This document shows positions 8,013 through 21,476 of a DNA stretch of 64,000 nt, piece after piece (positions within the stretch are counted from its first letter, which is position 1; every line of letters starts with the position of its first letter). Both the position numbers and the translations under genes were made by a program. The DNA is from Aequorivita echinoideorum (GTDB lineage: Bacteria; Bacteroidota; Bacteroidia; Flavobacteriales; Flavobacteriaceae): contig NZ_JAHCTB010000002.1 of assembly GCF_018476645.1 (NCBI RefSeq), positions 124,001 through 188,000 of the forward strand. The letters are read 5' to 3'. Below the pieces are notes generated by a model. That model ran no database searches. It saw only the letters and a list, made by a program, of their open reading frames with translations, and was not told the DNA's origin.

Positions 8013-10022
8013 ATGAAACCACTACTACTGCGCGGGGTATTAGCTTGGGTTTCGCGGAGAGGTTTTCCCCACACTACTTCCCAAACACAAGAAATTTTTT
8101 TTCTCAAAATAAAAATTGCAGTCTTCGCATTTATCTGTTTCATGCTTACAGCAAAAGTTTTCTCGCAGGATTACGAAATAAAAAATCTGCTTGACTCGCT
8201 GGAAACTACTACCGTTGCAGAAAAAAAACTAGAGCTACTTAGCAATATTACAGATTATTATTCCCTGAAGGATTTGGATAAAGCTATAATCTACGCAAGA
8301 AAAGGAGTTTTTCTTTCCGATAAAAATAAAAATACCAAATGGCAACCCAGATTTTATGAAATGAAGGGAAGAATTCATGCGAATATGATTCAGCTGGATT
8401 CTGCCTCTTTCTATTTTTCAAAAGCTGAAAAAGGGTATCAGAAAATTGGAGATAAAAAAGGGCAAGCTACTACTTATTTTAAAATTGGATGGGTTCACAA
8501 AAAGAAAGGAGAGCTACAAAAAGCTTTGGAAGCAGATTTGAAAGCCCTTAAATTGATGGAAAGCATTGGTGATAAAATGGGCATCGCCGGTGCCAATAGC
8601 AGATTATCACAGGATGTTTTATTGCAAGGAAGAAAGCAGGAAGCGCTGGATTACGCAAAGAAGACCATCGCGATATGTGAGAAAAATAATTTTCAACGCG
8701 AATTGGTTTTTGCCTACACTGCAGCTGGTGACGCCAGTATTGCCTTAAGCAACTATCAACAAGCCCTGGAATATTTTGAGAAAGCGTTGAATGAAGCAAT
8801 AAACCAAGGATTTGACGCCATGTCCCTTTCTGATTTTTATAATAATCGCGGCAATGCGTTGAAGCGACTAGGTCGCTATCCTGAAGCCCTCCAAAACTAT
8901 AAAGAGTCTTTGCGGCTGGCACAGGAATCAAATTACCAAAACGCCCTTAATACCATAGGTGCAAATTTGGGGGAGATAAATCTGTTAGTGGGAAATTATG
9001 AAGAAGCGCTTCCGTATCAATTGGAAACAATAAGACTTACCGAAGAAAGTGGCGATCTGCCCAATTTGCCTGAAAATTACATGCACGCCAGCACTATTTA
9101 TGAAAAATTGGGCAATTATCCCGCAGCACTGGAATATCAAAAAAAGGCGCGGATTATGGGTGATAGCGTTGCTGCATTGGAAAGCGATAGGAATATGAGC
9201 GAACTGCTTACCCAATACGAAACGGAGAAGAAAGAGCAAACCATCACGACCCAAAATGCACAAATTGCACAACAAAAACGCACACAGACTTTATACGTTA
9301 TTTTAGCCGCACTGCTCGCCATCATTGTCTTCGGAATGTTTTTTATCCTTCAAAATATTCGTAAAAAAAGGAAAGCGCTGGCGATACTTAATACGGAACT
9401 GGATGCAAAGAACAAGCAGAACGAATTGCTGCTCAAAGAAATCCATCACCGGGTAAAGAACAATCTGGAAATGGTAAAAAGCCTTATCGCCCTGCAATCT
9501 GCGCAATTGACAGATACCGCAAGCAAGGAAGCTATGCTCGCCAGCCAAAACCGCGTGCAGAGCATGGGGATAATTCATCAAAAATTATATCAGGGCAATA
9601 ATTTAGGCGCTATTGAAATGAAGGATTATTTTTTAAATTTAGGCGAAGGCGTTCTAGATACCTTCAACGCAGAACAAAAAGTACGTATAGAATGTGCCAT
9701 GGATGAATTGAACCTGGATGTGGATACCGCGGTGCCAATTGGATTAATCGTTAATGAACTGCTTACCAATGCGCTGAAGTATGCATTTCCCGATGGAAAT
9801 TCTGGTAAGATTGACATCAGTTTAAAGCACGAAAAGGATGCTTTGCAACTAAGAGTTTCGGATAACGGCATAGGAAAAATGGAAGGTGCCGTCCCAAAAG
9901 GAACGGGTTTCGGCACGCAACTTATTCGATTGCTCACACAACAACTCAACGGTACTATGCATGAAGATCATTCCCACGGAACTACCCTTCTTTTTCATTT
10001 TAAAAATTATGTAACGGCTTGA
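8013..10022 (+). CDS. Membrane sensor histidine kinase with TPR sensor domain (HisKA_2 type)
   Basis: Sensor kinase of up to 669 residues. Order: signal peptide (about 32-51), periplasmic TPR array (about 90-390, units ending in patterns such as GNYPAALEYQKKA), short coiled coil, membrane segment (427-447), HisKA_2 dimerisation domain with the phospho-acceptor in EIHHRVKNNLEMV (His479), then HATPase_c with N-box NELLTNALKYAF and the G-box motif DNGIGK. The first 30 residues (MKPLLLRGVLAWVSRRG...) are atypical for a secreted protein; a later rare start just before FFLKIKIAVF is possible. The stop overlaps the start of the downstream LytTR regulator (TGATG), so they form a coupled two-component pair. 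Confidence 0.88.
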   Translation: MKPLLLRGVLAWVSRRGFPHTTSQTQEIFFLKIKIAVFAFICFMLTAKVFSQDYEIKNLLDSLETTTVAEKKLELLSNITDYYSLKDLDKAIIYARKGVFLSDKNKNTKWQPRFYEMKGRIHANMIQLDSASFYFSKAEKGYQKIGDKKGQATTYFKIGWVHKKKGELQKALEADLKALKLMESIGDKMGIAGANSRLSQDVLLQGRKQEALDYAKKTIAICEKNNFQRELVFAYTAAGDASIALSNYQQALEYFEKALNEAINQGFDAMSLSDFYNNRGNALKRLGRYPEALQNYKESLRLAQESNYQNALNTIGANLGEINLLVGNYEEALPYQLETIRLTEESGDLPNLPENYMHASTIYEKLGNYPAALEYQKKARIMGDSVAALESDRNMSELLTQYETEKKEQTITTQNAQIAQQKRTQTLYVILAALLAIIVFGMFFILQNIRKKRKALAILNTELDAKNKQNELLLKEIHHRVKNNLEMVKSLIALQSAQLTDTASKEAMLASQNRVQSMGIIHQKLYQGNNLGAIEMKDYFLNLGEGVLDTFNAEQKVRIECAMDELNLDVDTAVPIGLIVNELLTNALKYAFPDGNSGKIDISLKHEKDALQLRVSDNGIGKMEGAVPKGTGFGTQLIRLLTQQLNGTMHEDHSHGTTLLFHFKNYVTA

Positions 10023-10786
10023 TGGATGGCGTAACCAAAATATTGATTGTGGAAGACGAAATGGTTATTGCAGCCAATATTTCGTTGCAACTTATTGAAT
10101 TGGGATACGATGTCACCGGAATTATACCGCGCGGGGAGGAAGCCTTAGAAAATATAGCTATTGACAGGCCCGATATTATTTTAATGGACATTCAATTGAA
10201 AGGGAATTTGGACGGAATTGCCACTGCACAGCAAATACACAAGCGCTTCGCCATTCCTATAATCTATCTCACCGCAAACACGGATGAGGCGCATTTTAAT
10301 CGCGCCAAGGAAACCCATCCCTATGCATTCATCTCTAAACCTTTTAAGAAATTGGATCTGCAGCGTGCCATTGAATTGACGGTGGATAGAATCTCAATTG
10401 AAAGAAATGCCGAGTCCAAGGAAAATGGTAGTATTGAAGCACATACTTCCGAAAACACCCTTCCCTATATCTTGAACGATCGCATTTTTGTTCGCCATAA
10501 CGAAAAGATGCTGAAAATAGATATTAAGGATATTTATTACATTGAAGCAGACCGTAATTACAGCCGCATTTTTACCGCAACGCGGGAGTATTTACTTGTT
10601 ATGACGCTCAAGGATATTGACGAAAAACTTCCGTATAATCATTTTTTAAGAATACACCGCAGCTACATTATCAATCTTTCCCAGATCAATGAAGTGGCCG
10701 GCACGCACGTGGTAATTTCAAAAAAGGCAATCCCCATGAGCAAGTCCATGCGTAATGAACTTCTAAGTAGGCTGCAGACCTTGTAA
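10022..10786 (+). CDS. Response regulator, REC + LytTR DNA-binding
   Basis: Protein of 254 residues, partner of the upstream kinase. The REC domain (about 5-120) shows the acidic pair in VEDE, the phospho-acceptor Asp in IILMDIQLKG, the conserved Thr in IYLTANTD and the Lys in FISKPFKK. A linker leads to a C-terminal LytTR domain (about 150-250) with IKDIYYIEADRNYSRI and FLRIHRSYIINLSQI, which bind DNA in this family. ATG 10022 overlaps the kinase stop codon (TGATG); the TTG at 10019 is less likely. Targets cannot be predicted from this window. Confidence 0.92.
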   Translation: MDGVTKILIVEDEMVIAANISLQLIELGYDVTGIIPRGEEALENIAIDRPDIILMDIQLKGNLDGIATAQQIHKRFAIPIIYLTANTDEAHFNRAKETHPYAFISKPFKKLDLQRAIELTVDRISIERNAESKENGSIEAHTSENTLPYILNDRIFVRHNEKMLKIDIKDIYYIEADRNYSRIFTATREYLLVMTLKDIDEKLPYNHFLRIHRSYIINLSQINEVAGTHVVISKKAIPMSKSMRNELLSRLQTL

Positions 10787-13465: not shown

Positions 13466-14965
13466 TTAAATTTTTTCGAAGGTAAGGAAATCGGTGCCGC
13501 CGTTGCCGCCGCTTACATCGGTGAGTTCAATTTTAATATCTGAATAATTTACAACATCCCAATCATCATTGAATTCATCAAAAGGAATAGTATTTCCAAA
13601 GTCTAAAATTAAATCAAGACCACTGCTGCTATTTATAACACTCCAAGTTCCATTAATGGTATTTCCACCATTTTGTGCTATCACGCTTCCATTTGAGTTA
13701 AATGTAACGCTGTAACCATTATAATCATTAGTTTCGTTGTCACCATCATCTATGTAGCTTTGTACATACCATTGCCCATCTATCAGTATGGTTGATAGCT
13801 CTTCGGGGTTTCCTCCGCCACTGCAATCCTCATATGGATTTCTTCCAAAATTTAAATAGTCAGTACCTCCGTTTCCGCCACTTATGTCCAGAAGCATAAT
13901 GTTTTGTGCATCGAAATTTACAACGTCCCAGTCATCATTTAAATCATCAAAAGGATCATCACTTCCCGAAATTTCAAAATTGAGTATAAGGTCGAGACCG
14001 CTACCACTGTTTGCAGTAGTCCAAGTACCATTTACAGTATTGCTGGTACTTGTGGCAGTTACAGTTTGATTTGCGTTGAATTGAAATTCATAGTTTACAT
14101 AATCACAGGTTTCATTGTCGCCATCATCGTTTAACAAATTCACATACCATACATCATTTGTTAAAATATTTGTAAAATCTGAAGAATTTCCTCCTCCACC
14201 GTTGGGATTACGTTCAAAAGTCAAGAAATCTACACCGCCATTACCGCCACTTATATGTTTCAGTTTTATGATATCTGGGGTAGCTTCAATTATGTCCCAA
14301 TCTTCGTCCAGTTCATCAAAGGGGGAATTATTACCGAAAAATAATATAAGGTCCGGAATACTGCTTCCAGTTAAATTCCAGGTACCATTAACATTGATAG
14401 AAGTTCCAGCAGCTATTGCTGTATTATTCGTATTAAAGGTAAATTCATAACCAGCGAAGTCATTTGTTTCGTCTTGATCATCAAAAAAATAGGTCACAAA
14501 CCACGATCCTGATGTGAGAATTGTTTCAAAGTCTGTAGTATAGCCGCCACCGTTTGAGCCACAGGAAGAAATTAATGTTGCAAGCTCAGCGTTACTGTTT
14601 ACCTGAACAATAGTTCCATCTTGTTGGATTACGTTTACCGGAAATTGCAAGGCTATAAAAGTTCCAGGCTCAAGGGAAAGCAATAAAGACAAAAGCTCTC
14701 CATCATTTGCTATGGTCTGGGTTCCTGTTTGCTGTTGGTTAGAATTATAGATAAAAAATGTGATGGGATATGCAAGATCAATACAATCTATCGATGCGCT
14801 ATTATTGTCATCTGATGTACGCAGTAAAAGATTGCCCAGTTCAGAATCTACAGACACCAAATCGGTATTAGAGTCATCAAAAGGTGTGGAATCGTCTTCA
14901 CTGCAAGAACTTACCAAAAACAATAAAAGGTAAGCAACTAAGGCAAATTTGGCTAATTTATTCAT
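13466..14965 (-). CDS. Repeat lipoprotein of the sigma/FecR locus (one A domain, three B domains)
   Basis: Lipoprotein of 499 residues with lipobox LVSSC (Cys21). After an acidic linker comes one 'A' domain bounded by two Cys (61-135: CIDLAYPITF ... LISSC). Then come three 'B' repeats of about 110 residues (145-253, 262-377, 388-499). Each B opens with a Trp-aromatic strand and an acidic turn (for example WFVTYFFDDQDETND), then a GTW motif, then DDWD and SGGNGGTDFLTF. The strand-rich pattern suggests small lipocalin-like beta-barrels; Asp-rich turns could bind cations (both inferred). It has its own copy of the shared two-part promoter upstream and a terminator on each side. I know no named family for these repeats. 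Confidence 0.85.
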   Translation of the reverse strand: MNKLAKFALVAYLLLFLVSSCSEDDSTPFDDSNTDLVSVDSELGNLLLRTSDDNNSASIDCIDLAYPITFFIYNSNQQQTGTQTIANDGELLSLLLSLEPGTFIALQFPVNVIQQDGTIVQVNSNAELATLISSCGSNGGGYTTDFETILTSGSWFVTYFFDDQDETNDFAGYEFTFNTNNTAIAAGTSINVNGTWNLTGSSIPDLILFFGNNSPFDELDEDWDIIEATPDIIKLKHISGGNGGVDFLTFERNPNGGGGNSSDFTNILTNDVWYVNLLNDDGDNETCDYVNYEFQFNANQTVTATSTSNTVNGTWTTANSGSGLDLILNFEISGSDDPFDDLNDDWDVVNFDAQNIMLLDISGGNGGTDYLNFGRNPYEDCSGGGNPEELSTILIDGQWYVQSYIDDGDNETNDYNGYSVTFNSNGSVIAQNGGNTINGTWSVINSSSGLDLILDFGNTIPFDEFNDDWDVVNYSDIKIELTDVSGGNGGTDFLTFEKI

Positions 14966-14993: not shown

Positions 14994-15025
14994 CTAGAAC
15001 CGTTCTCAAACTAAAAACCCTACCT
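14994..15025 (-). promoter_or_regulatory. Putative ECF-sigma promoter, copy B (A/B-repeat lipoprotein)
   Basis: Minus strand: AGGTAGGGT (15025-15017), exactly 16 bp, then GTTCTAG (15000-14994). The same elements with the same spacing stand upstream of the 585-residue lipoprotein and of fecR. The start codon lies about 30 nt downstream. Confidence 0.7.
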
Positions 15026-15040
15026 CTATCAATTTATTTT

Positions 15041-15073
15041 TGAAAAAAAACCATTCCGTTGAGGAATGGTTTT
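15041..15073 (-). terminator. Intrinsic terminator after the single-B lipoprotein
   Basis: Inverted repeat AAAACCATTCC (15047-15057) / GGAATGGTTTT (15063-15073) with a 5-nt loop. On the minus strand the stem is followed by eight T. It ends the unit 17356-15095 just before the next unit's own promoter. Confidence 0.85.
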
Positions 15074-15094
15074 AGAAACGGATTGATAAATCAA

Positions 15095-15565
15095 TTAAAT
15101 TTTTTCAAAGGTCAAAAAATCTGTACCGCCATTGCCACCACTCACATCTGTAAGTTCAATTTTTGAATTACTTATCGAAATAATATCCCAATCATCTGAA
15201 AGTTCCTCAAAATCTGCGGGAGAGGAAAAGAAAATATTGAAATCGGTATCATTGGAACTTCCACCATCATCATCGCTTGAGCTGCCATTGGTAATGGACC
15301 AAGTTCCCGTGACTGAATTATCTCCCTTAACTGCAACCAAACTATTATTTGAATTAAAGGTGAAGATATATCCTGTAAAATGGTTTGTTTCCTCTTGATC
15401 GGTATCAAAATAATAGGTTATTCTCCAATTTCCGTTTTGGACTATTTCTATGTTTTGCTGAAGGGGAGCATCCTGTTGTGAATTGCTATCATCATCCCCT
15501 TGACAGGAAATGGTCAATGTTTGAATACTAAAAATAATAAGTGCTGTTTTTAATAGAGTTTTCAT
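15095..15565 (-). CDS. Single-B-domain lipoprotein paralogue
   Basis: Lipoprotein of 156 residues. Signal and lipobox TISC (Cys21), a short acidic/Gln linker, then exactly one B domain (about 40-156): NGNWRITYYFDTDQEET, GTWSITNG, DDWDIISISNSKIELTD, and the same final residues (SGGNGGTDFLTFEKI) as the 499-residue neighbour. The shared C-terminus and similar DNA imply recent duplication. It lies 33 bp after the 585-residue gene with no promoter of its own, so the two are probably co-transcribed from the promoter at 17379-17410. This is the minimal member and the easiest for defining the domain. Confidence 0.8.
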   Translation of the reverse strand: MKTLLKTALIIFSIQTLTISCQGDDDSNSQQDAPLQQNIEIVQNGNWRITYYFDTDQEETNHFTGYIFTFNSNNSLVAVKGDNSVTGTWSITNGSSSDDDGGSSNDTDFNIFFSSPADFEELSDDWDIISISNSKIELTDVSGGNGGTDFLTFEKI

Positions 15566-15598
15566 AGTTTATATAGTTATTTACTGTTTATGTATTAA

Positions 15599-17356
15599 TT
15601 AATTTTTTTTAAAAATTAAGGTGTCCTCAATTTCACCTGTACTATTTCTGGTGATTGAAATTACGGTATTGCTTGTAAATTGAATCACCTTATATTCATC
15701 GTCATCAGCTCCGTTCAGTGGGCTATCCATATTGAAATCGAAATTTAGCTCTTCATCAATAATAGTTATTATATAATTTCCATCGATATTTTGAGATCCA
15801 TTTGTAGCCAATATGCTCTGGTTATTAAAAAATGTAAAGTTGAATCCTAAAAAATCTGAGGTTTCATCTTCCCCATCATCTAAATAGCTGTCAATATACC
15901 AAGTACCTGATTGCAATATACTGGTGAGTTCCTGCGGATCTGGCCCACCACCTCCTGTATTTGGCTCTCTACCAAAGGTAAGGAGATCGGTTTCACTGGT
16001 ATTTCCATTTTCATCGCTAAGACGAATAATATTTTGGTTAGCTTCTAAAACGTCCCAATCATCGTTGAGCAAAGAGAAATCACTATTGGTTGCTGTATCG
16101 AAATTGACTATCAAATTCAACTCATTAGCTTCGCTAATTACAGTCCAAAAACCGTTTATAGTATTATTTCCACTAATGGCAGTTGCAGCGCCATTTATAA
16201 AAAAGGAGAATTGGTATTCATTAAAATTCGATGTGTTATCTGTCCCACCTTCCCGCAACAAATTTATATACCAGTTGCCGGTTATGAGATTTTCGATAAA
16301 AACATTCAATTGTGTGTTAATACCCGTATTTGGATCTCGGCCAAATGTTAAATAATTAGTGCTGTCACTACCAGCGTTAGTGTGCTTCAATCTTATCATT
16401 TCAGAATTTGCCTCTATAATTTCCCAGTCATCATCAAATTCATCCAGCGGATCATTTTCACCGAAGAATAATTCCAAGGAATAATCTGAATCTAAGCTCC
16501 AGTTTCCGGGAAGCGTATTTCCGTCTTTCACTGCCTGTGCCATTCCATCTTCAGTAAATGCAAATCCGTATCCTTCATATATATCGGTTTCATCATAATC
16601 GTCGAAAAAGTAAGTTACGTACCAAATACCAGTTGTTAAGTCTTCTTCAAATTGAGCCACATCAAAAGGCGCTTCACTATTATTTGTTGCACATTCCAGT
16701 ATCATATTTTGTAACTCTACATTATTTGAGACATTTGCAACCGTTCCCCCTGAAGTAAAAACCGTAACGGGAAAATCCAAACTCACATACGTATTAGCAT
16801 CCAGATTCTGAAGAAACCCAAATAGTTCAATATCCTCGTTTATTGTTACAATTCCAGTTCTTTGTTGTTCAGCATTATAGGTTAAAAAATTAATGGGATA
16901 CGCAAAATCCAGACACGTTATTTCTTGTGAGCTAGTGTCGCAAGCTAGCGCGAGTGCATCCAGCTGATTCTGGCTACTTAAGGTTATTTCTGAAAAATCG
17001 AAAGTTTGTACCGTTATTGGGAAGTCAATTTCCAAAACATCACTATCATTTGGAAACTGCCCAAAAATCTGTATTATGAGTATAATATCCTCGTGGCTTA
17101 CTAGTGTAACTTGTTGGCCATTTGCAGTTACCGTGACAGGAAAATTTACTGAGGTGCAACTGTTGCCATCCACTATATCATCATAAGCACCTGGGTTTTG
17201 AGCAGTTCTTAATAAAAGATTGGTCAAAACAGAGGAAGATGTGATGGTTTCTGGCGGTGTTTCATCTATAAATTCCTGCTCTTCCTTTTGGCAGGAAATT
17301 AATAGTAGGGTTATTAAAGCCAAGAAAAAATTAAATGATGCGTGTTTTCTTTGCAC
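15599..17356 (-). CDS. Repeat lipoprotein of the sigma/FecR locus (two A domains, three B domains)
   Basis: Lipoprotein of 585 residues, lipobox LLISC (Cys22). It has two A domains, each bracketed by Cys (67-139 and 148-222) with FPVTV/YPINF and DFP[IV]TV strands, then three B repeats (about 231-342, 347-465, 474-585). B3 is the most diverged: it has lost the DDWD and GGNGG motifs. Repeats are separated by Gly/Pro-rich linkers. It is translated from GTG 17356; no closer ATG exists, and the codon lies about 23 nt after the -10-like element of the shared promoter. Divergent from the sigma factor gene. Surface exposure and ligand are unknown. Confidence 0.82.
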   Translation of the reverse strand: MQRKHASFNFFLALITLLLISCQKEEQEFIDETPPETITSSSVLTNLLLRTAQNPGAYDDIVDGNSCTSVNFPVTVTANGQQVTLVSHEDIILIIQIFGQFPNDSDVLEIDFPITVQTFDFSEITLSSQNQLDALALACDTSSQEITCLDFAYPINFLTYNAEQQRTGIVTINEDIELFGFLQNLDANTYVSLDFPVTVFTSGGTVANVSNNVELQNMILECATNNSEAPFDVAQFEEDLTTGIWYVTYFFDDYDETDIYEGYGFAFTEDGMAQAVKDGNTLPGNWSLDSDYSLELFFGENDPLDEFDDDWEIIEANSEMIRLKHTNAGSDSTNYLTFGRDPNTGINTQLNVFIENLITGNWYINLLREGGTDNTSNFNEYQFSFFINGAATAISGNNTINGFWTVISEANELNLIVNFDTATNSDFSLLNDDWDVLEANQNIIRLSDENGNTSETDLLTFGREPNTGGGGPDPQELTSILQSGTWYIDSYLDDGEDETSDFLGFNFTFFNNQSILATNGSQNIDGNYIITIIDEELNFDFNMDSPLNGADDDEYKVIQFTSNTVISITRNSTGEIEDTLIFKKN

Positions 17357-17378
17357 TTATAAAATATTGAAATTACAG

Positions 17379-17410
17379 TTAGAACAATTAAATTAAAATA
17401 AACCCTACCT
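17379..17410 (-). promoter_or_regulatory. Putative ECF-sigma promoter, copy C (585-residue lipoprotein)
   Basis: Minus strand: AGGTAGGGT (17410-17402), exactly 16 bp, then GTTCTAA (17385-17379). Identical architecture to the copies before fecR and before the 499-residue lipoprotein. Confidence 0.7.
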
Positions 17411-17432
17411 CAAAAGTTGAAAAGTTTTTAAA

Positions 17433-17440
17433 TATATTTG
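17433..17440 (+). promoter_or_regulatory. Housekeeping -7 element of the ECF sigma gene
   Basis: TATATTTG matches TAnnTTTG. It overlaps the TTG codon at 17438, so that codon is unlikely to be the start, and ATG 17459 is preferred. A well-spaced -33 element is not evident. The sigma gene lacks the AGGTAGGGT-type promoter, so it appears not to be under its own control. Confidence 0.4.
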
Positions 17441-17458
17441 AAATCCATCAACCTAGTT

Positions 17459-17968
17459 ATGAAAAATACGGAAAATGTATGTGACGAGAGCACATTCAAC
17501 CTTTTGTATAAAATATATGGAAAGCCCATCTGGAGGTTTATATATATTAAATGTGGAAATTCCTCTCAGGCAGATGATTTGGTCCAAGAAGCCTATATAA
17601 AATTATGGCAAAATTGTGCCAAAGTTTCAAAAGAAAAGGCAAAATCCTTCTTATATACGGTATGCAACAATGCTTTTTTAAATCAAGTTGCACATAAAAA
17701 GGTTGTGCTTAAACATGCCAAAAGCCAACCAGAAAAAATAAATAACCATTCTCCCGAATTTTTAATGGAAGAATCACAATTTAGCGAAAAACTTAAAAAA
17801 TCCATTGAAAATCTCACTGAAGCCCAACGCACTGCTTTTTTGCTAAATAGAATTGAAGGTAAAAAATATTCTGAAATAGCAGAAATGCTTGATATTTCAA
17901 TAAAAGCAGTGGAAAAAAGAATGAGCCAAGCATTGGCAACACTCCGCAAGGAAATTGGAAATATTTAA
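17459..17968 (+). CDS. ECF-type RNA polymerase sigma factor (FecI-like)
   Basis: Sigma-70 family factor of 169 residues with the two-domain ECF layout. Region 2 (about 15-80) contains the core-binding motif SQADDLVQEAYIKLWQN. Region 4 (about 110-165) has the helix-turn-helix LTEAQRTAFLLNRIEGKKYS then EIAEMLDISIKAVEKRMSQA. Regions 1 and 3 are absent. It is followed by fecR and a TonB receptor with an STN domain, the classic cell-surface signalling order. Three flanking units share a matching promoter motif, so this protein is the natural candidate to read it (inference). Confidence 0.93.
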   Translation: MKNTENVCDESTFNLLYKIYGKPIWRFIYIKCGNSSQADDLVQEAYIKLWQNCAKVSKEKAKSFLYTVCNNAFLNQVAHKKVVLKHAKSQPEKINNHSPEFLMEESQFSEKLKKSIENLTEAQRTAFLLNRIEGKKYSEIAEMLDISIKAVEKRMSQALATLRKEIGNI

Positions 17969-17973
17969 TTTCA

Positions 17974-18005
17974 AGGTAGGGTATTTTGGCTCTACTTTGT
18001 TTTAG
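17974..18005 (+). promoter_or_regulatory. Putative ECF-sigma promoter, copy A (fecR-TonB receptor operon)
   Basis: AGGTAGGGT (17974-17982), exactly 16 bp, then GTTTTAG (17999-18005), with fecR starting at 18023. It lies in the sigma/fecR spacer, so fecR and the receptor can be induced separately from the sigma gene. Confidence 0.7.
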
Positions 18006-18022
18006 CTACGAATAAGATTATT

Positions 18023-18934
18023 ATGGAGAAAAATTACTTATTGCACAAATGGCTAAATAATGAGGCTTCACCTGAAGAACGTAAGCAGTTGGAAGAGGAT
18101 CCAGAATATGCTTCACATATTAAAATTGCCAACCTAAGTTCTCGATTTGAATTGCCGGATATGGATGTAGATTCAAATCTTAAAGCAATTTTAGAAAAAA
18201 GGAAACATGTTCGGCATATAAACAATAACACCATTTTTTCATATGCCTGGAAGGTCGCAGCTTTTTTGGCCGTTGTTTTCGCTACCTATTATTACACCAC
18301 CACACTTGACACTATGGTAGAATCAAAAATAGCTCAAACGGAAACTTTTCTATTGCCCGATAATTCTGAAGTTGTTTTGAATTCGGGATCAAAAATTACC
18401 TACAACAAAAAGAGATGGAACACTTCCCGTGAACTTTCATTGGAAGGTGAAGCGCACTTTAATGTGGCAAAAGGAAATAAATTCAGTGTTGCAACCGTTG
18501 AAGGAATTGTAAGTGTTCTGGGAACAAAATTTAATGTTCGCGCAAGGGAAGGCGCACTTTCAGTTTCTTGTTATGAAGGATTGGTAAGCGTAGCTTTTGC
18601 GGATACTGTTCTACAGGTTTCTGCTGGGAATGAAGTTTATATAAAGGATGGAAAATTAGCCCTTAACCGAGAGGTCCAACAAACCAGTCCAACTTGGTTT
18701 CTGAGTGAAAGTTCTTTCAGAAATGAGAGTTTGACTACGGTTATAAAAGAACTTGAGAGACAATACCCGATAAAAGTGACCTTAGAAAATGTGAATTTTG
18801 AAAAAAAATTCACTGGCAGCTTCACACATTCCAATCTCGATTTAGCATTACAAGCCATTTGCGAGCCACTTAATCTACAATATAAATTAGGAAAAAAAGG
18901 AATAGTATATATTAATGCCAAAAATAGCAACTAG
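18023..18934 (+). CDS. FecR-family anti-sigma factor/transducer
   Basis: Inner-membrane regulator of 303 residues. A cytoplasmic N-terminal anti-sigma region (LLHKWLNNEASPEERKQLEE) is followed by one membrane segment (about 72-92, YAWKVAAFLAVVFATYYYT). The periplasmic FecR domain (about 105-215) contains TFLLPDNSEVVLNSGSKI, LSLEGEAHFNVAK and VSVLGTKFNVRA. The C-terminal DUF4974 domain (about 225-300: LTTVIKELERQYPIKVTLEN) normally contacts the receptor's N-terminal domain. It overlaps the receptor gene by 20 nt, so they are co-translated. In this family it relays receptor occupancy to the cognate sigma factor. Confidence 0.93.
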   Translation: MEKNYLLHKWLNNEASPEERKQLEEDPEYASHIKIANLSSRFELPDMDVDSNLKAILEKRKHVRHINNNTIFSYAWKVAAFLAVVFATYYYTTTLDTMVESKIAQTETFLLPDNSEVVLNSGSKITYNKKRWNTSRELSLEGEAHFNVAKGNKFSVATVEGIVSVLGTKFNVRAREGALSVSCYEGLVSVAFADTVLQVSAGNEVYIKDGKLALNREVQQTSPTWFLSESSFRNESLTTVIKELERQYPIKVTLENVNFEKKFTGSFTHSNLDLALQAICEPLNLQYKLGKKGIVYINAKNSN

Positions 18935-21476
18935 CTATAAAAAACTTATTTTCATTTCAATATTTATTGTCTTGGGAATAAAATCCTTTGGACAGAAAAT
19001 TGAAGAGACCACCCTATTGTCCTACATTACTTACGTGGAAAAAAAGTTTTCGGTTCGTTTCTCTTACGTTACGGAAGAGGTTGAAAAAATTAGGATAAAA
19101 CCGTTATCAGAAGAAAAAGAAACGGTAGAAAACATTCTATCCCATCTGCAGAGCAATACACCATTACGCTATCACCGCATAAATGAGCGATACATATCTA
19201 TAGCTCTTCCCAATGATGAAAATCATCTTTGTGTCCAACTTAAGGATTTTGAGACCCAATTACCTCTGGAGGGCGCCACTATTCTTTTAGGAGATGGGCC
19301 GTATAGAACCACTTCAAATGCTGAAGGATTTTTTTTCATTCCAGCCCAGCATATTAATTCATTATACTCAATATCATTTGTAGGATATAGGACCATTGAA
19401 GGGAATACTTCAGATTTATCAAGAGAATGTACCATTATATTACTCAGAACTAGCGTGTTTGAACTGGATGCTGTGGTGGTAAAGAATATTTTTACCAATG
19501 GTATCAATAAAAACCTAGATGGATCCATAAGGATTGTTACAGAAAACTTTGGACTTTTACCTGGACAAGTAGAAGATGATATTCTACAGATAACACAAGC
19601 GCTTCCGGGGATTACAAGTGTTGACGAAACAATTTCAAACATCAACATTCGAGGTGGTACTCATGATGAAACCCTAATGCTCTGGGACGATATAAAAATG
19701 TATCAAACCGGACATTTTTTCGGGCTTATATCTGCCGTAAATCCAGATATTACAAAAAATGTTACCGTTCACAAAAACGGTACGAACATAAGGTATGGCG
19801 AAGGGGTTTCAGGAGTAATATCCATGAAACCAAATAACAAAATCCCGAACGAAACGCAAGCTGGAATCGGTGCCAATTTGATGAATATTAATGCATTTTT
19901 GGAAATGCCCATTTCCAAAAAACTTGGGTTACAAATTGCAGCCAGAAAATCGATAAATGAATTTTTTGAGTCTCCCATCTATAGAAATTATACCAGCCGG
20001 ATTTTTCAGGATAGTGAAATTTCAGATATTGAAGACTCGGAAAGCAATATTCAAATAACTACTGATGAAGATTTTGGGTTTTATGACATAAGCACAAAAA
20101 TGTTGTGGAAAATATCGGAAAAGGATCTTATTGAATTTAGCGCATTGACTATAGATAATTCACTTGATTTTACCGAAACTGTTTCTGTCAATTCACAGTC
20201 AAAAACCAGTAAACTTGACCAAAGAAGTATTTTGGGGGGGCTTAGCTGGCAACATACTTTAAATGATAATGCCGAGTTAACAGCATCCACATACAGCACA
20301 TACTATCTTTTAGACGCTATAAAAAAGGATATATTTACGGCACAAGAACAAATTCAAAAAAATGAAGTCTTGGAAACCGGTATTAAATTGGAGTCAAATG
20401 TAGGCTTTTCAGAATCCTGGATTCTTCAGGGTGGTTATCATTTCTCGGAAATTGGAATTGCAAATACCCAAGACGTGAATCTGCCCAGGTTTAGGGACTA
20501 TGAAAAAAAAGTTTTACGCACCCATGCATTATTTGCAGGCTTGGATTACGTAGCGCCAAATAAAAAAACATTCTTGTTCAGTGGAGCACGAATCAATTAT
20601 TTTTCAAAATTTGAAAAATATAGAGTTGAACCCCGTTTGACTATAAATCAAAAAGTTGGGTATGGGTTTGCTGTCGAGATAATGGGTGAGTTTAAAAGCC
20701 AGGCCACTACCCAGCGAATTGATTTTGATAGTGATTTTTTGGGCATCGAGAAACGGAGATGGGTTTTGGCAGATGGGGAAGAAATTCCAATACTAACTAG
20801 TAAGCAAATCTCCCTGGGGCTTATTTATAACAAAAGAGATCTATTTTTAAACTTGGAAGGATTTTACAAAAGGGTTGATAATATTAATAGCGCAAACCAA
20901 GGTCTTCAAAATCAATATCAATTTACAAAAGCAATAGGTAATTATTCGGTTCGAGGCATAGAGTGTACACTAAACAAAAAAACTGGCGCATTAAGTACTT
21001 GGATTAGTTACACTTATAGTAATAACCAGTATAACTTTGAAACTTTGGAACCGAAAATTTTTCCCAACAATTTAGACGTGCAACATGCTGCTACTTTAGC
21101 TGGGACCTATGTGTATAAATCCTTAAAAATAGCATTGGGGGTAAACTGGCACAGCGGAAAACCGTATACAATTCCCCTAGAAAATACTGAAACAGAAATT
21201 GTGGGGGGAATACCAATCATAAAATATGATAGTCCACATCAACAAAGATTACCGCATTATTTTAGAACCGATTTATCTGCCGAGTATAACTGGAAATTTT
21301 CATCTAGAACAAGTGGAAAGCTAAATTTGGCACTTCTAAATATTCTTAATAGGGAGAACATTTTGAATATTCGTTACTCAGTTGCGAGAAACGAAAATAA
21401 TGTAACAACCGTAAATAAGATAGAAGAAATTTCTTTGGGCATTACACCAAATGTCTCTTTCCAAGTTTTTTTTTAA
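18915..21476 (+). CDS. Signal-transducing TonB-dependent receptor with STN domain
   Basis: Outer-membrane receptor of 853 residues. Order: signal peptide (about 1-27), STN domain (about 30-98; FSVRFSYVTEEVEKIRIKPL) that signals to FecR in FecA-like systems, a carboxypeptidase-regulatory-like domain (about 105-178), a plug (about 190-320; QALPGITSVDETISNINIRG, LMLWDDIKMYQ) and a beta-barrel ending in Phe. There is no SusD partner, so a glycan utilisation locus is unlikely. Together with the sigma factor and FecR it forms a surface-sensing trio; the A/B-repeat lipoproteins across the divergent promoter region are its probable output or partners. The ligand is unknown. Confidence 0.93.
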   Translation: MPKIATSYKKLIFISIFIVLGIKSFGQKIEETTLLSYITYVEKKFSVRFSYVTEEVEKIRIKPLSEEKETVENILSHLQSNTPLRYHRINERYISIALPNDENHLCVQLKDFETQLPLEGATILLGDGPYRTTSNAEGFFFIPAQHINSLYSISFVGYRTIEGNTSDLSRECTIILLRTSVFELDAVVVKNIFTNGINKNLDGSIRIVTENFGLLPGQVEDDILQITQALPGITSVDETISNINIRGGTHDETLMLWDDIKMYQTGHFFGLISAVNPDITKNVTVHKNGTNIRYGEGVSGVISMKPNNKIPNETQAGIGANLMNINAFLEMPISKKLGLQIAARKSINEFFESPIYRNYTSRIFQDSEISDIEDSESNIQITTDEDFGFYDISTKMLWKISEKDLIEFSALTIDNSLDFTETVSVNSQSKTSKLDQRSILGGLSWQHTLNDNAELTASTYSTYYLLDAIKKDIFTAQEQIQKNEVLETGIKLESNVGFSESWILQGGYHFSEIGIANTQDVNLPRFRDYEKKVLRTHALFAGLDYVAPNKKTFLFSGARINYFSKFEKYRVEPRLTINQKVGYGFAVEIMGEFKSQATTQRIDFDSDFLGIEKRRWVLADGEEIPILTSKQISLGLIYNKRDLFLNLEGFYKRVDNINSANQGLQNQYQFTKAIGNYSVRGIECTLNKKTGALSTWISYTYSNNQYNFETLEPKIFPNNLDVQHAATLAGTYVYKSLKIALGVNWHSGKPYTIPLENTETEIVGGIPIIKYDSPHQQRLPHYFRTDLSAEYNWKFSSRTSGKLNLALLNILNRENILNIRYSVARNENNVTTVNKIEEISLGITPNVSFQVFF

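Follow-up and report, generated by a model that had tools for sequence, protein, structure and literature searches.

A candidate extracytoplasmic function sigma factor regulon with a shared two-part promoter in Aequorivita echinoideorum

Introduction

Which promoters are read by the extracytoplasmic function (ECF) sigma factor that is encoded, beside a FecR-type regulator and a TonB-dependent receptor, in the genome of Aequorivita echinoideorum? The locus lies in a stretch of 64,000 nucleotides (nt) of the assembly GCF_018476645.1 (contig NZ_JAHCTB010000002.1, positions 124,001 to 188,000 of the forward strand), which is called the window here and from whose first letter all positions are counted. 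A member of the Bacteroidota may have dozens of ECF sigma factors, few of them with a known promoter. Until the loaded receptor gives its signal, the sigma factor in systems of this kind is held or guided by its FecR-type partner; in the Fec system of E. coli, the receptor gene is under the control of the sigma factor and the sigma gene is not under its own control. Three sites of the window share a two-part motif and stand before fecR and before two lipoprotein genes. Judged from their sequence, they are very probably dedicated promoters of the sigma factor encoded at 17459-17968 (plus strand), which would be part of a switch of the FecI/FecR/transducer type.

The original prediction, that this sigma factor drives the fecR-receptor unit and the two lipoprotein units, is supported on sequence evidence along four lines. 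The motif is confined to the locus in the organism's own genome; within the genus it recurs before the same three genes; genomes that lack the sigma gene have hardly any copies of it; and the -35 element changes with the clade and the recognition helix of the sigma factor while the -10 element and the spacing stay. The prediction can be refined in two respects. The sigma gene itself does not appear to be among the driven units, and relatives seem to add further units to the regulon, namely an operon with cytochrome-type, YceI and cupredoxin genes, a DGYYD-repeat lipoprotein and a propeller protein of the type IX secretion system (T9SS) type.

The three sites in the window and in the genome

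The motif AGGTAGGGT-N16-GTTYTAR had been noted at three positions and was found at all three without a mismatch. The predicted sigma-dependent promoter of fecR and the receptor gene (17974-18005, plus strand) has its -35 element, AGGTAGGGT, at 17974-17982 and its -10 element, GTTTTAG, at 17999-18005, from which a transcript start at about 18010-18013 on the plus strand is predicted. A second predicted promoter (17379-17410, minus strand; -35 element at 17410-17402, -10 element at 17385-17379) would serve the gene of a 585-residue lipoprotein and probably also that of a 156-residue lipoprotein, and the third (14994-15025, minus strand; -35 element at 15025-15017, -10 element at 15000-14994) the gene of a 499-residue lipoprotein. 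The short distances to the start codons that had been claimed were borne out, the sites ending 17 nt before the ATG of fecR at 18023, 22 nt before the GTG of the 585-residue gene at 17356 and 28 nt before the ATG of the 499-residue gene at 14965. The fecR site can also be drawn as a terminator-like stem (17972-17999, plus strand).

In the window alone, with three mismatches allowed, three matches are unremarkable (shuffle mean 1.41; at least three matches in 22 of 100 shuffles). The whole genome (27 contigs, 2,929,928 bases), scanned with up to two mismatches, gave these three matches only, and the reversed control pattern gave 25; with a spacing of 15-17 nt the same three matches alone were found and the control gave none. 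The idea that the motif is a general word of the genome was ruled out by both scans. The genome-wide scan that had been proposed with the original prediction thus found a motif that is rare and tied to gene starts, not one that is common and unrelated to them.

The core that is conserved in relatives is slightly unlike the first wording and reads RGTAGGGT, 15 nt, TGTYHHW. In the site of the 499-residue gene in A. echinoideorum the first T of TGT is a G, so that this site is skipped by the core pattern. The core pattern has one match elsewhere in the genome (C23, L129), in overlap with a long open frame on the opposite strand.

Conservation in the genus and co-occurrence with the sigma gene

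The genus set comprised 28 genomes of the Aequorivita group, that of A. echinoideorum included. Stretches with the locus were available from 20 same-genus genomes, of which 19 hold the sigma gene, the divergent 585-residue lipoprotein gene, fecR and the receptor gene; the remaining one, G007, is a piece of a contig. Before fecR, the core RGTAGGGT-N15-TGTYHHW was found in 19 of 19 loci, before the 585-residue gene in 19 of 19, and before the 499-residue gene in all 14 loci having that gene (13 of the 19 and the fragment G007). The spacer letters are unlike among the three positions. With regard to the lipoproteins themselves, the match of the 585-residue protein in G010 (L066) is split in two and that of the 499-residue protein in G023 (L078) has an internal stop.

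An orthologue of the sigma factor (at least 79% identity, own included) is present in 20 of the 28 genomes. These 20 genomes hold 98 core matches, with 16 for the reversed control, and 80 of the 98 lie at six recurrent gene positions: before fecR (20), the 585-residue gene (20), the 499-residue gene (13), the cytochrome-type operon (8), the DGYYD-repeat lipoprotein (10) and the propeller protein (9); 18 matches are left over. The seven near-complete (at least 99%) genomes without the sigma gene have three core matches together (control 13), all of which overlap long open frames on the opposite strand. The eighth sigma-less genome, G007, is 69% complete, with a contig end that interrupts the locus; it has two matches, one of them before the 499-residue gene. 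A recurrent match with the letters GGTAGGGTCGCC accounts for nine of the 18 left-over matches and for the one in sigma-less G015, and was set aside. The five of this type that were checked (L086, L093, L106, L129 and L107 of G015) each lie inside a long open frame on the opposite strand.

Promoter classes in the family and the recognition helix

The family set consisted of the best 80 of 150 relatives from one receptor scan. The sigma gene and fecR stand beside the receptor gene in 76 loci, and a gene resembling that of the 585-residue lipoprotein is divergent from the sigma gene in 72 of the 76 (71 within 900 nt); the remaining four have a contig end at or near the sigma gene. The element sought in both upstream regions was a heptamer separated by a spacer from TGTY, and the class words were derived from the same loci. 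Three -35 classes were found, A (GTAGGGT), B (TCAGGAG or TAAGGAG) and C (NTGGGAC), together with a -10 word near TGTYNTA throughout and a spacing of 15 nt in nearly all 72 loci. Under a lenient rule, both regions could be assigned in 70 of the 72 loci (not in L203 and L237), and they shared one class in 68 of these 70. Under a strict rule, which asked for six matching letters of the seven and for a spacer of exactly 15 nt, 65 of the 72 loci passed at both promoters, all 65 with the same class at the two, and none did so in 40 rounds of dinucleotide shuffling. In a quick tree of the sigma factors with 73 rows, class A formed one side of a branch with 100% support in the Shimodaira-Hasegawa-like approximate likelihood ratio test, and the -35 classes required three changes on this tree (shuffled mean 24.8).

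Eleven extra loci outside the 76 were also inspected, though not blind, the sites of L125, L126, L135, L136, L138 and L141 having been seen beforehand. Eight of the 11 fit at both promoters: L135, L136 and L141 have GTAGGGT on both sides, L139, L125 and L126 are of class B, and L133 and L134, which combine K153 with Y156, have GTAGGA[AG].

The recognition helix of the sigma factor, SIKAVEKRMSQA, carries K153 at its position 7 and also S156. When the loci were grouped by position 7 of the helix, K was found in 42 loci with 83 sites near GTAGGGT, Y in 27 loci with 51 sites T[CAG][AG]G[GT]A, and H in six loci with 12 sites, all with G as the third letter. The locus L246, whose sigma frame ends early, was left out of this grouping for its short frame. 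For counts along the tree, 84 rows with sites were available, and only those were counted whose sites agreed at the position in question, the rows dropped for disagreement including L138 (position 6) and L140 (positions 1 and 7). K153 agreed with G at -35 position 1 in 79 of 79 usable rows and H153 with G at position 3 in 82 of 82. For residue 156, scored as S, H or M versus Y, position 6 (G versus A) agreed in 82 of 83 rows, all but L203, and position 7 (T) in 68 of 69, all but L237. In a ranking of columns by mutual information, K153 came second at position 2 and held or shared the top place at positions 1 and 3; the leading columns at position 7 were 148 and 157. Since the clades move as a whole, each trait amounts to a single independent pair and no p-value is given.

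Residues 153 and 156 align with T171 and H174 of SigW of B. subtilis, both of which contact the -35 element in the solved complex. According to the paper on the SigW complex, S172 of sigma E (SigW T171) bonds to position -34 and F175 (SigW H174) lies against the base at -33 of the other strand (PMC6713349).

A second sigma factor, 48% identical to the first, occurs in G004, G011 and G019, and a piece of the class B helix finds these three only among the 28 genus genomes. The class B motif has eight matches in the 28 genomes (control 3), five of them at the locus of the second sigma factor in these three genomes and three elsewhere (in G004, G001 and G015). It stands at both promoters of that locus in two genomes and at one promoter in the third. 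Two -35 types thus occur side by side in the same cell, one at each locus.

On these data the balance tips slightly towards a broader proposal, in which a module of the Flavobacteriaceae keeps its wiring, TGTYNTA and the 15-nt spacing, and sigma factor and promoters are switched jointly among at least three -35 words, following helix residues 153 and 156. The words of the series would be GTAGGGT, T[CA]AGGAG and NTGGGA[CT], with GTAGGA[AG] in between, and the residues K, Y or H at 153 and S/H or Y at 156. Such pairs would form a natural series of mutually orthogonal sigma-promoter combinations, two of which would coexist in three Aequorivita genomes.

Further units carrying the site in relatives

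The full-length DGYYD-repeat lipoprotein, which has one lipocalin-like repeat, was found in 10 of the 28 genomes, and the core site stands before all ten genes, eight of which were also inspected as sequence. An example (L113:1299-1934, minus strand) shows an RR-containing signal, a long DGYYD run and a terminal lipocalin-like repeat. The secreted propeller protein with a T9SS tail is represented by 11 genes in 10 genus genomes, with a strict site before nine of them; the site lies 15-17 nt before the start in eight genes and 132 nt before it in the second copy of G022, and in G012 the -10 element differs at its last letter. The sigma-less genome G006 keeps the propeller gene, but its site is altered to GATAGGGT-N15-TGTTGTT.

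The third addition is an operon encoding a CxxCH lipoprotein, YceI, a tRNA_anti-like protein, a DUF5777 barrel protein and a cupredoxin carrying a T9SS tail. Its gene content was taken from three genomes and the families were assigned in one, where the Cytochrome_CBB3 match of the CxxCH lipoprotein was below the cut-off. The DUF5777 gene adjoins the locus in 12 genus genomes, and a strict site was found before the operon in eight of these. One example of the operon is L064:5474-8333 (minus strand), and look-alike genes stand by the paralogous class B sigma gene in L125 (5623-8387, plus strand) and L126. At the thresholds used, neither the propeller protein nor DUF5777 had a match in the genome of A. 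echinoideorum, and the DGYYD lipoprotein had none over its full length, so that the regulon of this genome, as far as seen, consists of the three units described above.

Contrary observations and alternative explanations

Several observations weigh against reading the sites as promoters of this sigma factor with a -35 element that follows its helix. Four of the 12 genus genomes with a nearby DUF5777 gene lack a strict site before the operon. In the family loci, the sites of L203 are weak and differently spaced, and L236 and L239 have unlike classes at their two promoters; among the extra loci, the fit of L138 and L140 is limited to one side, the lipoprotein side of L138 showing both GTAGGGT and GTAGGAG, and in L142 no site was found. 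The use of class words from these same loci, with a scan for the best candidate in each region, favours agreement, though shuffles give none. As to the helix, K153 and T at position 2 agree in 68 of 72 rows only, the four exceptions being H rows that also have T; by mutual information three columns of region 2 precede S156 at position 6, which leaves it in fourth place; and the covariation as a whole rests on few independent changes. The signalling-domain match of the receptor also falls short of the Pfam cut-off, its N-terminal FecR_C/STN-like segment (residues 30-95) scoring 22.8 bits with FecR_C at a gathering score of 24.4.

Other explanations of the sites have also been considered. They could be operators of another DNA-binding regulator, activator or repressor, with the promoters elsewhere; an operator and a promoter are indistinguishable from the sequence of a site alone, a dimer with two different half-sites could bind a conserved motif of 8 + 7 letters, and the window encodes a LytTR response regulator nearby (10019-10786). 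Such a regulator is, however, a very unlikely reader, given that the 15-nt spacing is kept in nearly all 72 loci, that TGTYNTA is constant while the other part tracks the clade and recognition helix of the sigma factor, that the elements end 17-28 nt before the starts in the window and that they come and go with the sigma gene within the genus. The sites might instead be read, by cross-talk or in a shared regulon, by another of the cell's ECF sigma factors. Each genus genome has 18-33 first-look sigma candidates, and overlapping ECF regulons are known in general, as is also stated in the F. psychrophilum study (PMC9723704). Against this stand the confinement of the motif to the locus in the own genome, its near disappearance together with this sigma gene, and the paralogous sigma factor of G004, G011 and G019, whose locus shows a -35 type of its own; a different reader is thus regarded as a shade less probable even than an operator.

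It is scarcely credible that gene duplication, or an RNA or terminator element, accounts for the conservation. The lipoprotein genes are related, and their upstream regions could share ancestry, but fecR is unrelated to them, the spacers differ between the sites, and unrelated genes (propeller, cytochrome-type operon) also carry the site. The overlap of the fecR site with the terminator-like stem would fit a terminator, yet by eye the stem is not kept in relatives, and the site was rejected as a terminator on this ground. Dedicated promoters of the sigma factor at 17459 remain the explanation that is followed below.

Proposed mechanism

The sigma gene appears to have a promoter of another kind. 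The element TATATTTG (17433-17440, plus strand), 18 nt before the sigma ATG, is a probable promoter that fits the -7 box TAnnTTTG of the Bacteroidota primary sigma factor as given in two studies (PMC9723704, PMC7366714). TAnnTTTG was found before the sigma gene in 45 of the 72 family loci (shuffles 11.65), and an exact class word with N15-TGTY pointing to the sigma gene in none of the 72. With a primary-sigma box before it and no class word toward it, the sigma gene is probably expressed at a basal rate.

According to the proposed mechanism, the sigma factor would be made from this promoter of the ordinary primary-sigma kind and kept in check by the FecR-type anti-sigma factor. On binding of its ligand, the TonB-dependent receptor would signal via FecR, and the sigma factor would be freed. 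It would then direct RNA polymerase to RGTAGGGT-N15-TGTYNTA before the fecR-receptor genes, the genes of the 585- and 156-residue lipoproteins and that of the 499-residue lipoprotein. Brake, sensor and surface lipoproteins would rise together, with the sigma gene outside the loop, and we infer that activation, through the joint rise of receptor, anti-sigma factor and lipoproteins, would both amplify sensing and reset the switch. A possible role of the lipoproteins is to present the ligand or to store it. As a guess, the YceI, cytochrome-type and cupredoxin genes of relatives hint at a redox-active or lipophilic ligand. In sister lineages, sigma factor and promoters would have been re-specified together, at the -35 element.

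Relation to known systems and significance

The locus resembles the FecI/FecR/FecA system for ferric citrate in E. coli in that an ECF sigma factor, a FecR-type regulator and a TonB-dependent receptor stand side by side. Unlike in that system, fecR here shares the predicted sigma-read promoter with the receptor gene and the output includes several lipocalin-like lipoproteins; the comparison is one of gene layout. The ECF/anti-sigma pairs of the SusC/SusD loci for polysaccharide utilisation come from the same phylum and have the same arrangement of sigma factor, FecR and TonB-dependent receptor. No SusD-like or sugar enzyme family was found here among the ten window proteins scanned, which sets the locus apart from the SusC/SusD type.

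With respect to promoter words, in B. thetaiotaomicron TGTT was reported at about -10 of the mapped starts of two promoters assigned to an ECF sigma factor, the motif search itself not being significant (PMC12596196). Promoter motif 2 of this organism, with its proposed ECF sigma factors, has TGTT at about -10 and a second element at about -30, as here (PMC7366714, PMC12596196), but it belongs to other sigma groups and genes, and the comparison of letters covers the -10 word. The motif of EcfO of B. fragilis is said to be known (PMC7366714). The motif SM6 of F. psychrophilum comes from the same family, Flavobacteriaceae, and represents a promoter set assigned to an ECF-type sigma factor; unlike the sites here, it has a CGT box at -10 and T9SS genes in its regulon (PMC9723704). 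According to the same texts, no ECF promoter was known for B. thetaiotaomicron in 2020 (PMC7366714), and further ECF-controlled starts were still to be found in F. psychrophilum (PMC9723704).

The kind of system is known, and its promoter, its regulon and the -35 series were not met in the literature searched. The closest motifs there are SM6 and the TGTT-containing promoters of B. thetaiotaomicron, compared by text only, and their upstream words may yet resemble those described here. Among the titles and abstract openings, no work was found whose title ties GTAGGGT to a sigma factor and none on a lipocalin with an ECF sigma factor in Flavobacteriaceae; a search for Aequorivita sigma factors gave unrelated work only. 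The present analysis ties a promoter word, a regulon and a sigma factor to one another, by sequence alone, in some 70 loci. It yields a direct prediction of transcript starts and of the residues that may set the -35 choice. If the lipocalin-like lipoproteins, together with the cytochrome-type, YceI and cupredoxin proteins of some relatives, are the outputs of one receptor, they would offer a handle on what that receptor senses, and the -35 types could act as orthogonal promoters in non-pathogenic Flavobacteria.

Genes and elements of the locus

The start of the sigma gene was taken to be the ATG at 17459, which gives a protein of 169 residues. It matches Sigma70_r2 and Sigma70_r4_2 of Pfam above the cut-off and thus has the regions 2 and 4 and the length of about 170 residues that are expected of an ECF sigma factor; in NCBIfam, it scored 92.8 bits with sigma70-ECF (cut-off 42.9). 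The best NCBIfam match was TIGR02985 (Sig70_bacteroi1), with 116.7 bits at a cut-off of 126.4, and because this score is below the cut-off the protein was classed as an ECF sigma factor only. The gene of the FecR-type anti-sigma factor (18023-18934, plus strand; 303 residues) lies 54 nt behind the sigma gene, and its product has both the FecR (3.3e-17) and the FecR_C (1.8e-12) domain of Pfam above the cut-off, so that a FecR stands directly beside the sigma factor. The TonB-dependent receptor gene (18915-21476, plus strand; 853 residues) overlaps fecR by 20 nt. Plug and barrel of the receptor were recognized by Pfam above the cut-off, its CarbopepD_reg_2-like segment matched below the gathering score, and no NCBIfam family was matched.

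The gene of the 585-residue lipoprotein (15599-17356, minus strand) is divergent from the sigma gene and has a GTG start; its translation shows an SC lipobox. The 156-residue lipoprotein gene (15095-15565, minus strand) follows 33 nt behind, and as the two are so close and no promoter site was found in these 33 nt, they are probably one unit. The 499-residue lipoprotein is encoded at 13466-14965 (minus strand). By their translations, the three proteins are built from related lipocalin-like repeats, a single one in the 156-residue protein, and none of them matched a lipocalin family above the Pfam cut-off; the 499-residue protein scored 20.1 bits with DUF4923 (cut-off 22.8), and the other two gave no family match. 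The AlphaFold2 model of the 156-residue protein is small and mostly beta (predicted local distance difference test score 78.0). Its top Foldseek matches were largely lipocalin-like but weak, with a best E value of 3.7e-4, one of 565 matches having E < 0.001, and template modelling scores to the query of 0.26-0.48 among the 50 matches listed. A model of the whole 585-residue protein had a predicted template modelling score of 0.34 and was set aside for fold claims. The repeats of the two larger proteins (13466-14965 and 15599-17356) include an acidic stretch such as DDGDNETNDYNGY, which resembles a metal-binding loop.

A hairpin with a T-run, probably a terminator, was seen by eye between the 156- and 499-residue genes (15047-15073, minus strand); it is not in the computed site list that includes the stem at 17972-17999. 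Outside the window, the lipoprotein homologues of the own genome (L127, L128) showed no site by eye or in the genome scan. One of them, related to the 585-residue protein (L127:2363-3959), adjoins a different sigma-like gene and one of primary-sigma type. Elsewhere in the window, a histidine kinase with tetratricopeptide repeats and the LytTR response regulator are encoded at 8013-10786, in frames that overlap by 4 nt.

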